Positions 2,463 to 5,654 of a DNA stretch of 5,789 nt are shown here, in pieces (positions within the stretch are counted from its first letter, which is position 1; every line of letters starts with the position of its first letter). This DNA comes from Nitrospinae bacterium RIFCSPLOWO2_12_FULL_45_22. Lineage in GTDB: Bacteria > 2-12-FULL-45-22. The position numbers were made by a program, and so were the translations under genes. The notes under the pieces were generated by a model that did no database searches, was not told the origin of the DNA, and saw only the letters and a list, made by a program, of their open reading frames with translations. The DNA is taken from assembly GCA_001803565.1 (NCBI GenBank), contig MHDQ01000149.1, positions 1 to 5,789 of the forward strand, given 5' to 3'.

Positions 2463-2485
2463 TATGTTTTCCTGATCCTCTGACT

Positions 2486-2509
2486 AGCACCCACGTCTCT
2501 AAACGTGCT
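2486..2509. repeat. Short hairpin upstream of moaC
   Basis: AGCAC, two unpaired C bases, then ACGT pair with ACGTGCT after a short AT-rich loop, giving a seven-pair stem with a two-base bulge. It lies 24 bases or more upstream of the moaC start, in what would be its leader. No T-run follows on either strand, so it is not a convincing terminator. It is too simple to call a molybdenum cofactor riboswitch. Confidence 0.35.
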
Positions 2510-2527
2510 GTAACCTTTCACTGGTGT

Positions 2528-2577
2528 TGTCACCCTGAGCGGATCCATGAGAGCCTTCGCTTTTGCTCACAATGACA
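2528..2577. repeat. 50-bp imperfect inverted repeat (REP/MITE-like)
   Basis: The stretch begins TGTCACCCTGAGC and ends GCTCACAATGACA. The two 13-base arms are inverted copies matching at 10 of 13 positions, around a 24-base centre containing GAGAGCCTTCGCTTTT. Elements beginning TGTCACCCTGAGC and ending in the complementary TGACA are a common kind of dispersed intergenic palindrome in several bacterial phyla. I infer a member or relic of such a family; only one copy is visible here. It could also form a transcript hairpin in the moaC leader. Confidence 0.5.
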
Positions 2578-2606
2578 TAATGATGGAAAAGTTGATGGAT
2601 GGGTAC

Positions 2607-2635
2607 AAATTACTTTAGGGTAACTGAAAAGTCAA
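2607..2635 (-). promoter_or_regulatory. Possible moaC promoter
   Basis: On the minus strand TTGACT (2635-2630) matches five of six bases of the -35 consensus and is followed 17 bases later by TAATTT (2612-2607), a poor -10 match (three of six). It lies about 145 bases before the moaC start and fires towards it. If correct, the transcript would include the inverted repeat and the hairpin. The match is weak and the genes may instead be read from elsewhere. Confidence 0.3.
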
Positions 2636-3001
2636 GTTTAGGCCAAAGCGAACTTTTTCTTACCCCAGGGTTTACCCAGTGATGAGCCGAGGAATAGATA
2701 TAGCTTGAGTAACCATCTTATATGTTTGAGCAAAATTTTTTCTCTGTTTTAACAGGTGCTCTTCAAAAACAATGGAGAGAGCTTTCTGTGGGCTTCAACA
2801 TGAATCGGTGCAAGGGTAATGAATGGGCATACATGGGATTTTTCCTCTATGCTTTTAGGATATTGCCTTGAAGACAGAGGTTTTGGTTGTGAGAATAATG
2901 GGAGATTTATGACAGGCTTGTTAAAGAGGGTATAATGTTTCAAGCATTCTGACAAAAGTCATTCCTTACGGTTTGAAATAAATGCCCCTCTGGGAATTAT
3001 T

Positions 3002-3018
3002 ATGTAAAATATTTTACT
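3002..3018. promoter_or_regulatory. Upstream operator palindrome O1
   Basis: The 17-base ATGTAAAATATTTTACT contains the perfect 14-base palindrome GTAAAATATTTTAC (3004-3017). An identical 17-base copy lies 31 bases downstream. This copy sits just upstream of the -35 hexamer. The two-fold symmetry and duplication are typical of a repressor site, and the natural candidate is the HTH protein encoded at 3435-4277. Confidence 0.75.
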
Positions 3019-3026
3019 CAAAATTC

Positions 3027-3055
3027 TTGACAATGTAAAATATTTTACTTACACT
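3027..3055 (+). promoter_or_regulatory. Sigma-70-type promoter of the toxin-antitoxin-protease operon
   Basis: A perfect -35 hexamer TTGACA (3027-3032) is followed by the optimal 17-base spacer and a fair -10 hexamer TACACT (3050-3055, four of six). The start of transcription would fall near 3062, about 65 bases before the first gene. The spacer is filled exactly by the second copy of the operator, so repressor binding would exclude RNA polymerase. A secondary extended -10-like TGCTATAAAT lies at 3084-3093 without a good -35. Confidence 0.75.
3033..3049. promoter_or_regulatory. Core operator palindrome O2, within the promoter spacer
   Basis: This is the second exact copy of the 17-base ATGTAAAATATTTTACT, with the palindrome at 3035-3048. 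It fills the spacer between the -35 and -10 hexamers. The 31-base centre-to-centre distance from the first copy is close to three helical turns, so two bound dimers would lie on the same face of the DNA and could act cooperatively. Confidence 0.78.
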
Positions 3056-3126
3056 CTTGTTGATGAAGCTAAGTTTTCTCTGTTGCTATAAATCTCTAGA
3101 TATCAGACATGGACATGGAATTTTAA

Positions 3127-3423
3127 ATGACCTTAGAAGAAATACAATCATTGGTGTTAAAAGGCAGATACGATTATTCTAATAAAGTCAGATCTTTTAT
3201 GGAAGAAGGATGGTATTCTGAGGAAGATTTGGAGTGTTGTATTAGAAGTGCTACAAAGATTTACAAAGTGGAGAAAGATGAATTAAAAGCCTCAGTTGAC
3301 GGAAAGAAGTATGTAATCATTGGGAAAGATACATATGGATGTTTATTCTATACCTGTGGCAAAGTCATTAAGGATGACGAGGGTAAGCTTTATTTCTTTA
3401 TTACAGCACATAAAGCAGATTAA
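3127..3423 (+). CDS. DUF4258-like putative toxin of a type II toxin-antitoxin pair
   Basis: This is a small, soluble 98-residue protein with no signal peptide or membrane segment. Its plan resembles the DUF4258 group of small proteins: an N-terminal helix (TLEEIQSLVLKGRYDYS), a second helical stretch with YSEEDLECCIRSATKIYK around residues 30-47, then beta strands DGKKYVIIGKDTYGCLFYTC (58-77) and a last strand LYFFITAHKAD (88-98). DUF4258 genes are often found next to MqsA/YgiT-type antitoxins, and a RelE- or MqsR-like RNase role is commonly assumed. That function is inferred, and no catalytic residue is certain here. It is the first gene after the operator-bearing promoter and lies 11 bases before the antitoxin-like gene. 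The ribosome binding site is weak (GGA about eight bases upstream), which could keep toxin synthesis low. A five-codon in-frame frame stops directly before its ATG. Confidence 0.7.
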   Translation: MTLEEIQSLVLKGRYDYSNKVRSFMEEGWYSEEDLECCIRSATKIYKVEKDELKASVDGKKYVIIGKDTYGCLFYTCGKVIKDDEGKLYFFITAHKAD

Positions 3424-3434
3424 AGGGGAAAACA

Positions 3435-4277
3435 ATGTTTAATTATATTTGTGAAGAGTGCGGTAAGGGTACTGTCAAAGAAAAAGTTTTTGAAAATTAT
3501 CGAACAAAAATTAAAGGGTATCCTTTTGTTGTTGATAAGGCCATAATTGGCGTTTGCGATCGATGCGGAGCGAAACATTTTAAGGCGAATGAAACAAAAC
3601 GTTGGGAAGAACTTTATAACAAGGATTTAGAATTAAAACATATTTCACTACTACCTGACGAAATTGAAGCAGTAAGGAAATCTTTGGGCCTTTCGATGGA
3701 AGATTTTGCGTATCTTATCGGGTGTACACGTCAATCGATTTATAACTGGGAGAAAAAAGATAGAGAAAAGCCCCAATCTCGAATGGCCGATTTACTTATA
3801 AAACTTGTTCGTTATTCTTTTGAGGTTGGCAAAGTAGATGTTATCAATTTCCTTACAGAAGAGGCCAAAAAATTAGGAATTACGATAGAAGTGGCAAAAC
3901 AAACTTCTTCTACCCTTATAGGTAACATAATCCACCTTAATGTTAAAAAAGTTCCCAGAGATTATTTTCAAAAGCCAAAAGGCAGTCTTTCATTAGCCGC
4001 TGTAGCAGTTGAAGAAAGAGAGATCACAATAGCTGAATCCTTGGAGCAAGAATTAACTGGCATTTTACATTATGACTATGGAAGGGCTGCTCTATCGTTA
4101 GAGATAGAAAAAAATACAATTGGATTAAAGATCGTTGATTTTGAACTGGTAACAAATAATGATAGGCATTATATTAGGCAGGATGTAAAAATTGAAGATA
4201 ACCGCATATTATTGCTCTCGGATACAGAATATACAGAAGATAAAGTTAGAGAAATCATTTTAAAGCCGAAATCCTGA
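3435..4277 (+). CDS. MqsA/YgiT-like zinc-finger plus XRE-HTH antitoxin with a long C-terminal extension
   Basis: This 280-residue protein begins with a zinc-binding module: Cys6-x2-Cys9 and Cys41-x2-Cys44 (CEECGKG and CDRCGAK), the arrangement of MqsA/YgiT-type antitoxins, where it binds the toxin. An XRE-type helix-turn-helix follows at about residues 73-127 (LPDEIEAVRKSLGLSMEDFA, then IGCTRQSIYNWEKKDREKPQ), the DNA-reading part. Family antitoxins are usually 70-135 residues and end there. This one continues for about 150 residues of unrecognised, mixed-strand sequence (for example SLSLAAVAVEERE and GLKIVDFELVTNNDRHYIRQ). It has a good ribosome binding site (AAGGGGA, 3423-3429). It sits between the putative toxin and the Lon-like protease with gaps of 11 and 12 bases. 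It is the likely repressor at the two upstream palindromes. The antitoxin role rests on family and context. The extension could be a protease target, a sensor or an immunity domain. Confidence 0.8.
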   Translation: MFNYICEECGKGTVKEKVFENYRTKIKGYPFVVDKAIIGVCDRCGAKHFKANETKRWEELYNKDLELKHISLLPDEIEAVRKSLGLSMEDFAYLIGCTRQSIYNWEKKDREKPQSRMADLLIKLVRYSFEVGKVDVINFLTEEAKKLGITIEVAKQTSSTLIGNIIHLNVKKVPRDYFQKPKGSLSLAAVAVEEREITIAESLEQELTGILHYDYGRAALSLEIEKNTIGLKIVDFELVTNNDRHYIRQDVKIEDNRILLLSDTEYTEDKVREIILKPKS

Positions 4278-4289
4278 AAAAGGTCAAAA

Positions 4290-5462
4290 ATGGGTATGGA
4301 GGAGCATGTAGAAAGGTTAAAAAGACTGAAAGGGCTTCTTCGCGAAGCCTTCATTCTGCTTCCTGCTTTTAATAATAGACAAGAGACTCAACCATTAGAC
4401 GAGCTTTTTAATAATATTTGTAGATTACTTTTCACCGATGATTTTTACCTTCATCTGTGGGATGAAGGAGCCCTTTATCAATTAGTAGAGTTTTTCAAGG
4501 CTAAAACACCTAATCCAACAGTATACGGAGAGCGGCTTACTAAACTCTCAGAGCGTAAGAATTTTGTCCAACAGACAAATGAGTTCTTTTTCTCAATCCT
4601 TAGTCATGAATTTCCTATGGAAGAAGTTGTCAATAGAGTATCTGCACTTACCAAGATTGATGAAGCAGCCTTCTTGAAACTTAAGGCTTCAGGCCATTTG
4701 CAGGATATTAGAGCAAGTAAGTCTCCTGCCTCAGAAAAGATTGAGGCTTTCATTGAACATCTTATAAATGATATGGGCGTCAATTTTGGAGAGGCAGAAG
4801 ACGGTTTGAGGCAGGTTCTTGCTTCTATAAAGGCACAGGAAACCCCGGGAAGGGCAAACGCCCTTTTGGTTAATACATCAAGTAATGCAGGGATTCTTAT
4901 TCCATTATCAACTCGTCTCCAACTCGGTAAAGGTGAAGTACACTGTCTCATATCTAGTGGTGGCGATTTCAAGACAGCAATAGATAGAGCCAGGCATTTG
5001 TTGCTCAGCAACGGTTTTCTCAATAGGATGGACGATGTAGATTATTCATTAGATATTACCGAGGCAAGCTATAGTGGGGATTCAATAGGGTTGGCTGCTG
5101 CTATTGCTATGTATGGTGCTGCCACAAAGCAATCAATAGACCCTTATACATCCTTTACAGGTAATATAAACCTTGAAGGTAACCAATACAAGATTACACC
5201 TGTTAAAGGAATTAGCCAAAAACTTGATGCTGCTATACTGAACGGATGTCGGCGTGTTTTTATCCCTATACAGAACCACTCAGAAATTAGTGGCGATTAT
5301 ACTAAAAAATTACAGATTATTTGTGTTAGTGATATTACAGATGTACTATTGAAATTACAGACTTCACTTGAACCTCTCCCCGGCGATACACTCCAGATAA
5401 GAAAAATTAATTTTTTACGGGCGTATTGCCAAAATACCCTCAACCCCGATGCCACACTTTGA
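4290..5462 (+). CDS. Lon-type (S16) peptidase-domain protein without ATPase domain
   Basis: The last 200 of 390 residues match the proteolytic domain of Lon. Ser265 in the motif SYSGDSIGLAAA takes the place of the nucleophile (GPSAG in Lon). TSFTGNINLEG at 287-297 follows. Then comes VKGISQKLDAA at 305-315, where Lys311 aligns with the second dyad residue (Lys722 of E. coli Lon), and next the usual GCRRVFIPIQN. Dyad spacing is 46 residues against 43 in E. coli Lon, with the extra residues in the intervening loop. No Walker A or B motif is present, so there is no AAA+ unfoldase. Residues 1 to about 185 are helical and unrecognised. The start ATG has AAAGG six bases upstream and lies 12 bases after the antitoxin-like gene, so it belongs to the same operon. 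A role in cleaving the antitoxin or toxin is inferred. The last 15 codons are antisense to the nucleotidyltransferase gene. Confidence 0.85.
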   Translation: MGMEEHVERLKRLKGLLREAFILLPAFNNRQETQPLDELFNNICRLLFTDDFYLHLWDEGALYQLVEFFKAKTPNPTVYGERLTKLSERKNFVQQTNEFFFSILSHEFPMEEVVNRVSALTKIDEAAFLKLKASGHLQDIRASKSPASEKIEAFIEHLINDMGVNFGEAEDGLRQVLASIKAQETPGRANALLVNTSSNAGILIPLSTRLQLGKGEVHCLISSGGDFKTAIDRARHLLLSNGFLNRMDDVDYSLDITEASYSGDSIGLAAAIAMYGAATKQSIDPYTSFTGNINLEGNQYKITPVKGISQKLDAAILNGCRRVFIPIQNHSEISGDYTKKLQIICVSDITDVLLKLQTSLEPLPGDTLQIRKINFLRAYCQNTLNPDATL

Positions 5463-5654
5463 TGGAATATAGCGGCCGATCCTTTCAAGAAAAGGCAGGC
5501 TTGACTCTCTTAAGATGATAAGTAAATCTATGTCACTCCCTGGCACTGCTTCGCCTCTGGCAAAAGAGCCAAAGAGTATCACTTGCTCAATTTCAGGATA
5601 GTGTTCTCGAAGTTCCTTAATAGATTTTCGTAATGAGTGAGAAAGATTAGCCAT
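5415..5654 (-). CDS. MNT-type nucleotidyltransferase domain protein, probably 3'-truncated or frameshifted
   Basis: This 79-residue protein has the minimal nucleotidyltransferase core: FGSFARGEAVPGSDIDLLI, with Gly29-Ser30 and the metal-binding pair Asp41 and Asp43. Related small proteins often pair with HEPN toxins as antitoxins that AMPylate them, or occur alone. No HEPN gene is visible here. Family members of this type normally continue after the SKCGIGVE stretch into a strand such as VFPYT and a further helix. Here the frame goes GIGVEGILAIRP and stops. Removing one G near 5437 would give GVEVF in another frame, so a frameshift or a nearby rearrangement breakpoint is likely. The ATG shares its A with the argG stop codon (TAATG), so expression should be coupled to argG. 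Its 3' 48 bases are antisense to the end of the protease gene. The catalytic core itself looks intact. Confidence 0.72.
   Translation of the reverse strand: MANLSHSLRKSIKELREHYPEIEQVILFGSFARGEAVPGSDIDLLIILRESSLPFLERIGRYIPSKCGIGVEGILAIRP

Follow-up and report, generated by a model that had tools for sequence, protein, structure and literature searches.

In Nitrospinae bacterium RIFCSPLOWO2_12_FULL_45_22, a predicted toxin-antitoxin pair is followed by a third gene, which encodes a stand-alone protease of the Lon type; this protease could act as a private switch for release of the toxin. In the preferred reading, to which we give nearly even chances, the three genes are a probably acquired toxin-antitoxin-protease operon in which gene 3 cuts gene 2 in response to a cue, freeing the toxin and inducing the operon. 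The parts and their layout are taken from sequence or from structure models, and from them we infer each functional step. The window covers contig MHDQ01000149.1 in full (5,789 bp), and the source genome belongs to a sparsely sampled phylum. The three genes are as follows.

3127-3423, plus strand: gene 1, 98 aa, putative toxin, DUF4258-like, BECR (MqsR/BrnT-like) fold
3435-4277, plus strand: gene 2, 280 aa, MqsA-family antitoxin with a zinc finger, an HTH and a C-terminal extension
4290-5462, plus strand: gene 3, 390 aa, ATPase-less Lon (S16) protease with a helical N-terminal part and a protease domain

The intergenic gaps are 11 bases (genes 1 and 2) and 12 bases (genes 2 and 3), and the ORFs lie exactly where a sequence-only reading had placed three adjacent genes with these gaps. 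When the region was shuffled 200 times, the longest run without a stop codon reached 129 codons; frames of 280 and 390 aa are therefore not a product of chance. The ribosome-binding sequences are fair for genes 2 and 3 and weak for gene 1. No plus-strand promoter-like site was found between the three genes. Early in gene 3, at positions 4331-4351 of the window, is a near-perfect hairpin (AGGGCTTC-TTCGC-GAAGCCTT). It was considered as an attenuator and dropped, as its folding z-score of -0.13 is no better than that of shuffles.

Upstream of gene 1, the 17-mer ATGTAAAATATTTTACT is present twice, with copies 31 bp apart, and the two copies are placed on a predicted promoter.

3002-3018, no strand assigned: operator copy 1, palindrome GTAAAATATTTTAC, upstream of the -35 box
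3027-3055, plus strand: sigma-70-type promoter, TTGACA-17-TACACT, 10/12 matches
3033-3049, no strand assigned: operator copy 2, identical to copy 1, filling the -35/-10 spacer

Comparable promoter matches are not rarer in shuffles than in the real sequence, and the support for this promoter is therefore its position between and over the operators. The operators themselves are expected 0.04 times in shuffles of the window. With 0-1 mismatch, the site occurs at this promoter and nowhere else in the 3.67-Mb assembly. An operator-bearing promoter had already been read here from the letters. A palindromic operator at the operon promoter is a trait of MqsRA-type modules, and two such predicted sites are present here. 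Genome-unique operators are what a dedicated, operon-specific repressor would need, and the three genes look like one self-regulated operon. Between moaC and the operators (positions 2463-3000) are more than 500 bases that are AT-rich and apparently non-coding. The GC content of positions 2463-3126 is 38%, and an Rfam search of the window gave no match.

Genes 1, 2, and 3 have GC contents of 33, 35, and 40%, against 48-49% in the left flank. GC3 is 27-32% in the three genes and 46-53% in the four left-hand genes, which by eye we take to be gatA, gatC, a MOSC-like gene, and moaC. The right flank holds what we take, also by eye, to be the end of argG, besides a small nucleotidyltransferase gene. 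The cassette is thus AT-rich between housekeeping-like genes and was probably imported, the visible context being the 5,789 bp of the contig. The nucleotidyltransferase gene (5415-5654, minus strand) encodes a 79-aa MntA-like protein that scores 33 bits to an MntA antitoxin model, below the cut-off. It is convergent with gene 3 and overlaps its 3’ end by 48 bases.

Gene 3 scores 38.8 bits to PF05362 (Lon_C; cut-off 21.1 bits) over residues 262-354, and 95.5 bits (2e-30) to a profile of 20 Lon domains from which gene 3 was left out. Both scores bear out the earlier claim that gene 3 ends in a Lon-type peptidase domain. By phmmer, residues 186-354 align with A. fulgidus LonB. The Ser265 and Lys311 dyad is invariant in 21/21 aligned Lon domains. 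The protein can be divided into a helical N-terminal part (residues 1-185) and a protease domain (residues 187-360). The model of the protease domain has pLDDT values mostly of 85-97 in the catalytic core and superposes at 2.0 A over 168 residues (Z 24.3) on the protease domain of E. coli Lon. Gene 3 therefore has the Lon fold with a Ser-Lys dyad that characterizes peptidase family S16. The AAA+ domain of canonical LonA/LonB was not matched anywhere in the 390 residues by family profile searches. The N-terminal part is predicted to be helical with low model confidence, and no sensor domain was recognized in this low-confidence model. CalpL, SAVED-Lon, and CARF-Lon proteins are recognized by a nucleotide-sensing SAVED or CARF domain and a type III CRISPR setting. 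Matches of gene 3 to these models cover the Lon region only, and there is no profile match to a known defence domain outside that region.

Gene 2 scores 67.3 bits to TIGR03830 (MqsA family; curated cut-off 61.8 bits) over residues 6-125, with an HTH_3 match at residues 77-121; it had been read as an MqsA-like zinc-finger/HTH protein, and the assignment holds. The zinc-finger cysteines are C6-C9-C41-C44, so that gene 2 has the CxxCG...CxxCG zinc finger followed by an HTH that is typical of the family. Past the MqsA domain is a C-terminal extension of 155 residues (about 126-280). Searched alone, this extension matched no Pfam family, and it matched no ORF at 13 other MqsA-type loci, of which at least one has an extension of a different type (Panacea).

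Gene 1 had been described as DUF4258-like. No significant family match was found for it in Pfam, NCBIfam, or PADLOC searches, but a profile of DUF4258 proteins taken from other genomes gives it 14.9 bits, against 7.6 bits for the best of 2,000 self-shuffles. The description therefore stands at the level of this profile and not at that of Pfam. The AlphaFold2 model has a mean pLDDT of 86.5 and a pTM of 0.76, from an alignment that included nine other DUF4258-like rows and may favour this fold. The top structural match (Z 9.5, 2.8 A over 87 residues) is the toxin chain MqsR of the E. coli MqsR-MqsA complex, followed by 7vd7_A from a Salmonella toxin-antitoxin complex (Z 7.8) and the RNase toxin BrnT (Z 6.9). 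HigB2 is lower in the order (Z 4.5), and plain Foldseek E-values are weak (0.2). The three toxins heading the matches are a coherent signal, to which the DUF4258 rows may have contributed. Position, profile, and model agree with a small BECR-fold toxin directly upstream of its antitoxin, as in MqsRA and DUF4258-MqsA modules, and gene 1 is regarded as a BECR-fold toxin candidate. Its activity is uncertain because a near-invariant DUF4258 histidine is replaced by Lys20. MqsR requires Lys56 and Tyr81. An MqsR-type profile does not single out gene 1, which was therefore rejected as a classical member of the MqsR sequence family.

The distribution of the module was examined at several levels. Protein-level searches of roughly 800 distinct genomes found, apart from ordinary Lon, nothing related to gene 3, and nothing related to the gene 2 extension; the genome count is an estimate, and part of it comes from searches with gene 3 only. 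Plasmids (genes 1, 2, and 3) and phages (genes 2 and 3) gave no relatives by tblastn, and scans of viral contigs gave none either. Two motif-pattern scans of 84,980 species gave no gene 3 relative, and pattern scans of this kind may miss distant relatives. The guide alignment of the first scan had two invented rows, used only for choosing patterns, and the guide of the second was A. fulgidus LonB. The second scan returned 21 loci, 20 of which have a whole-length Lon ORF, all with Walker A motifs; the remaining locus is a fragment at a contig end. Two short Lon-only frames were checked, one (L128) being cut off by the contig end and the other (L132) being a fragment beside an intact Lon.

With the Lon profile, no Lon gene was found near any of 16 MqsA-type loci (116 kb) or 37 DUF4258 loci (105 kb). 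A DUF4258-like gene followed by a zinc-finger gene is present in at least nine of the 26 DUF4258 loci examined, one of them elsewhere in the source genome. Because such pairs are common, the toxin-antitoxin pair is nothing new in kind, and what sets the locus apart is the protease. The pair in the source genome (L015, positions 1211-1767; G000:C140) is an ordinary DUF4258-YgiT zinc-finger pair whose two genes overlap, and is a natural comparison for the three-gene module. As the searches gave neither a relative of gene 3 nor one of the antitoxin extension, the module is a singleton, a single locus in one draft genome with no second example in these searches. Without a second example, co-evolution and conserved adjacency cannot be demonstrated. 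The sequence-only reading knew of no described MqsA-type toxin-antitoxin module with a Lon-domain third gene, and none was present in the open-access papers searched.

The closest known design is MqsRAC. It belongs to the TAC systems, in which the antitoxin has a C-terminal extension and the third gene is a chaperone (PMC5105189, PMC9519451). Both are three-gene operons with a C-terminally extended MqsA-type antitoxin and a third gene expected to decide the fate of the antitoxin. The third gene of MqsRAC is a SecB-like chaperone, whereas here it is a Lon-type protease, and no SecB match was present among the family matches of gene 3. The two extensions are likened by position. DUF4258-MqsA fusions have been published (PMC11980606). 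DUF4258-MqsA type II modules (PMC11980606), with the loci L015, L064, and L131, share with the window a small DUF4258-like BECR toxin directly before an MqsA-family or YgiT-type zinc-finger antitoxin. The other copies examined here have short antitoxins and no Lon gene, and gene 1 of the window is divergent and below Pfam detection.

Two proteases offer further comparisons. CalpL is an ATPase-less Lon-domain protease that is switched on by its sensor and by oligomerization and cuts its operon partner CalpT (PMC11417357). The CalpL/CalpT/CalpS system is tripartite like the cassette, combining such a protease with a protein that it cleaves, or here would cleave, to free a bound partner. The Lon domain of CalpL is N-terminal and its C-terminal SAVED domain senses cA4, whereas the Lon domain of gene 3 is C-terminal, behind a helical part with no SAVED or CARF match. 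CalpT and CalpS are anti-sigma and sigma factors; the partners in the window are antitoxin and toxin candidates. LfgB of E. coli is repressed by MqsA and degrades MqsA (PMC10846083), the same two relations as proposed here, a protease gene under MqsA repression and a protease that degrades MqsA. LfgB, however, is a JAB-type metalloprotease of a cryptic prophage elsewhere on the chromosome, and gene 3 is a Lon-type serine protease in the same operon.

MqsA binds MqsR via its zinc-finger half and represses its own operon. By analogy with MqsRA, the operators would be bound and the operon repressed by gene 2, either by itself or together with gene 1, and the zinc finger of gene 2 would keep gene 1 inactive. 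The helical N-terminal part of gene 3 may sense a cue or oligomerize, activating the Lon domain. Gene 3 would then cut gene 2, most likely through or at the extension, which would free the toxin and de-repress the promoter. That the protease cleaves the antitoxin is plausible. The extension would take the role of the MqsRAC chaperone-addiction domain with opposite sign. The module may in this way be a mirror image of a toxin-antitoxin-chaperone system: a dedicated, ATPase-independent protease of the Lon type would detect the trigger with its N-terminal part and destroy an extended MqsA-type antitoxin, with no need for the Lon or Clp of the cell; this wider comparison is tentative, and we lean a little against it.

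The evidence counted for the switch is the operon geometry, the genome-unique operators, the toxin fold, the MqsA assignment, and the complete dyad with the Lon fold. To these are added the short distance of 12 bases between genes 2 and 3, where a plausible ribosome site but no promoter-like site is present, the low GC and GC3 common to all three genes relative to the left flank, the frequency of toxin-first DUF4258-zinc-finger pairs, the published DUF4258-MqsA fusions, and the precedents of CalpL, LfgB, and MqsRAC. Counted against it are the lack of a second example, the Lon gene count of zero at the 16 MqsA and 37 DUF4258 loci, the low-confidence N-terminal part with no recognized sensor domain, and Lys20 in place of the histidine in gene 1.

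The same operon and the same evidence for an intact protease would also fit a protease that mainly acts on the toxin, or that constitutively trims the antitoxin for maturation or level control, with no cue-driven release. A maturing cut of the unusual extension would likewise explain why an extended antitoxin lies beside a protease. The literature searched holds no type II module with such maturation, and an N-terminal part of 185 residues suggests regulation rather than a constitutive trimmer. This is unlikely, though the least so of the alternatives to the switch.

Gene 3 could instead be the effector, or act on other host or phage proteins, with genes 1 and 2 as its regulator and the operon serving co-expression only. 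The Lon-domain proteins BrxL and CalpL act in defence with other targets or roles, and gene 3 matches the Lon domain of BrxL in structure (Z 22) and in sequence (37 bits). Genes 1 and 2, however, look like a complete toxin-antitoxin pair alone, and the defence-profile matches of gene 3 end with the Lon region; we consider this improbable, and rank it behind a protease that trims. Lowest in our ranking is a passenger role for gene 3, by which a protease gene with no relation to the pair came to lie downstream of an ordinary toxin-antitoxin pair within an AT-rich island. The failure to find recurrence anywhere searched is what such a passenger would leave, but the tight 12-base spacing, the promoter-free junction of genes 2 and 3, and the composition common to all three genes speak against it, and the antitoxin extension was likewise found at this locus only.

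How type II antitoxins are removed in response to a cue is a matter of dispute, as the housekeeping proteases Lon and Clp offer no evident specificity. A module with its own protease would allow toxin release to be tested directly, using three proteins and a single point mutant (S265A). If the switch is real, protease control would join chaperone control as a means by which a simple pair becomes a triggered one.

A further locus with a Panacea-extended MqsA antitoxin was observed at L055 (positions 3573-6371; G256:C32). Eight bases separate the antitoxin gene from a 247-aa gene, behind which lies a 274-aa ORF. The 274-aa ORF has no Pfam match, and its start, MTIAISVKVNDGLVLATDSAST, resembles by eye a proteasome/HslV-type Ntn hydrolase. 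The ORF may represent a separate case of a protease-like gene beside an MqsA antitoxin.
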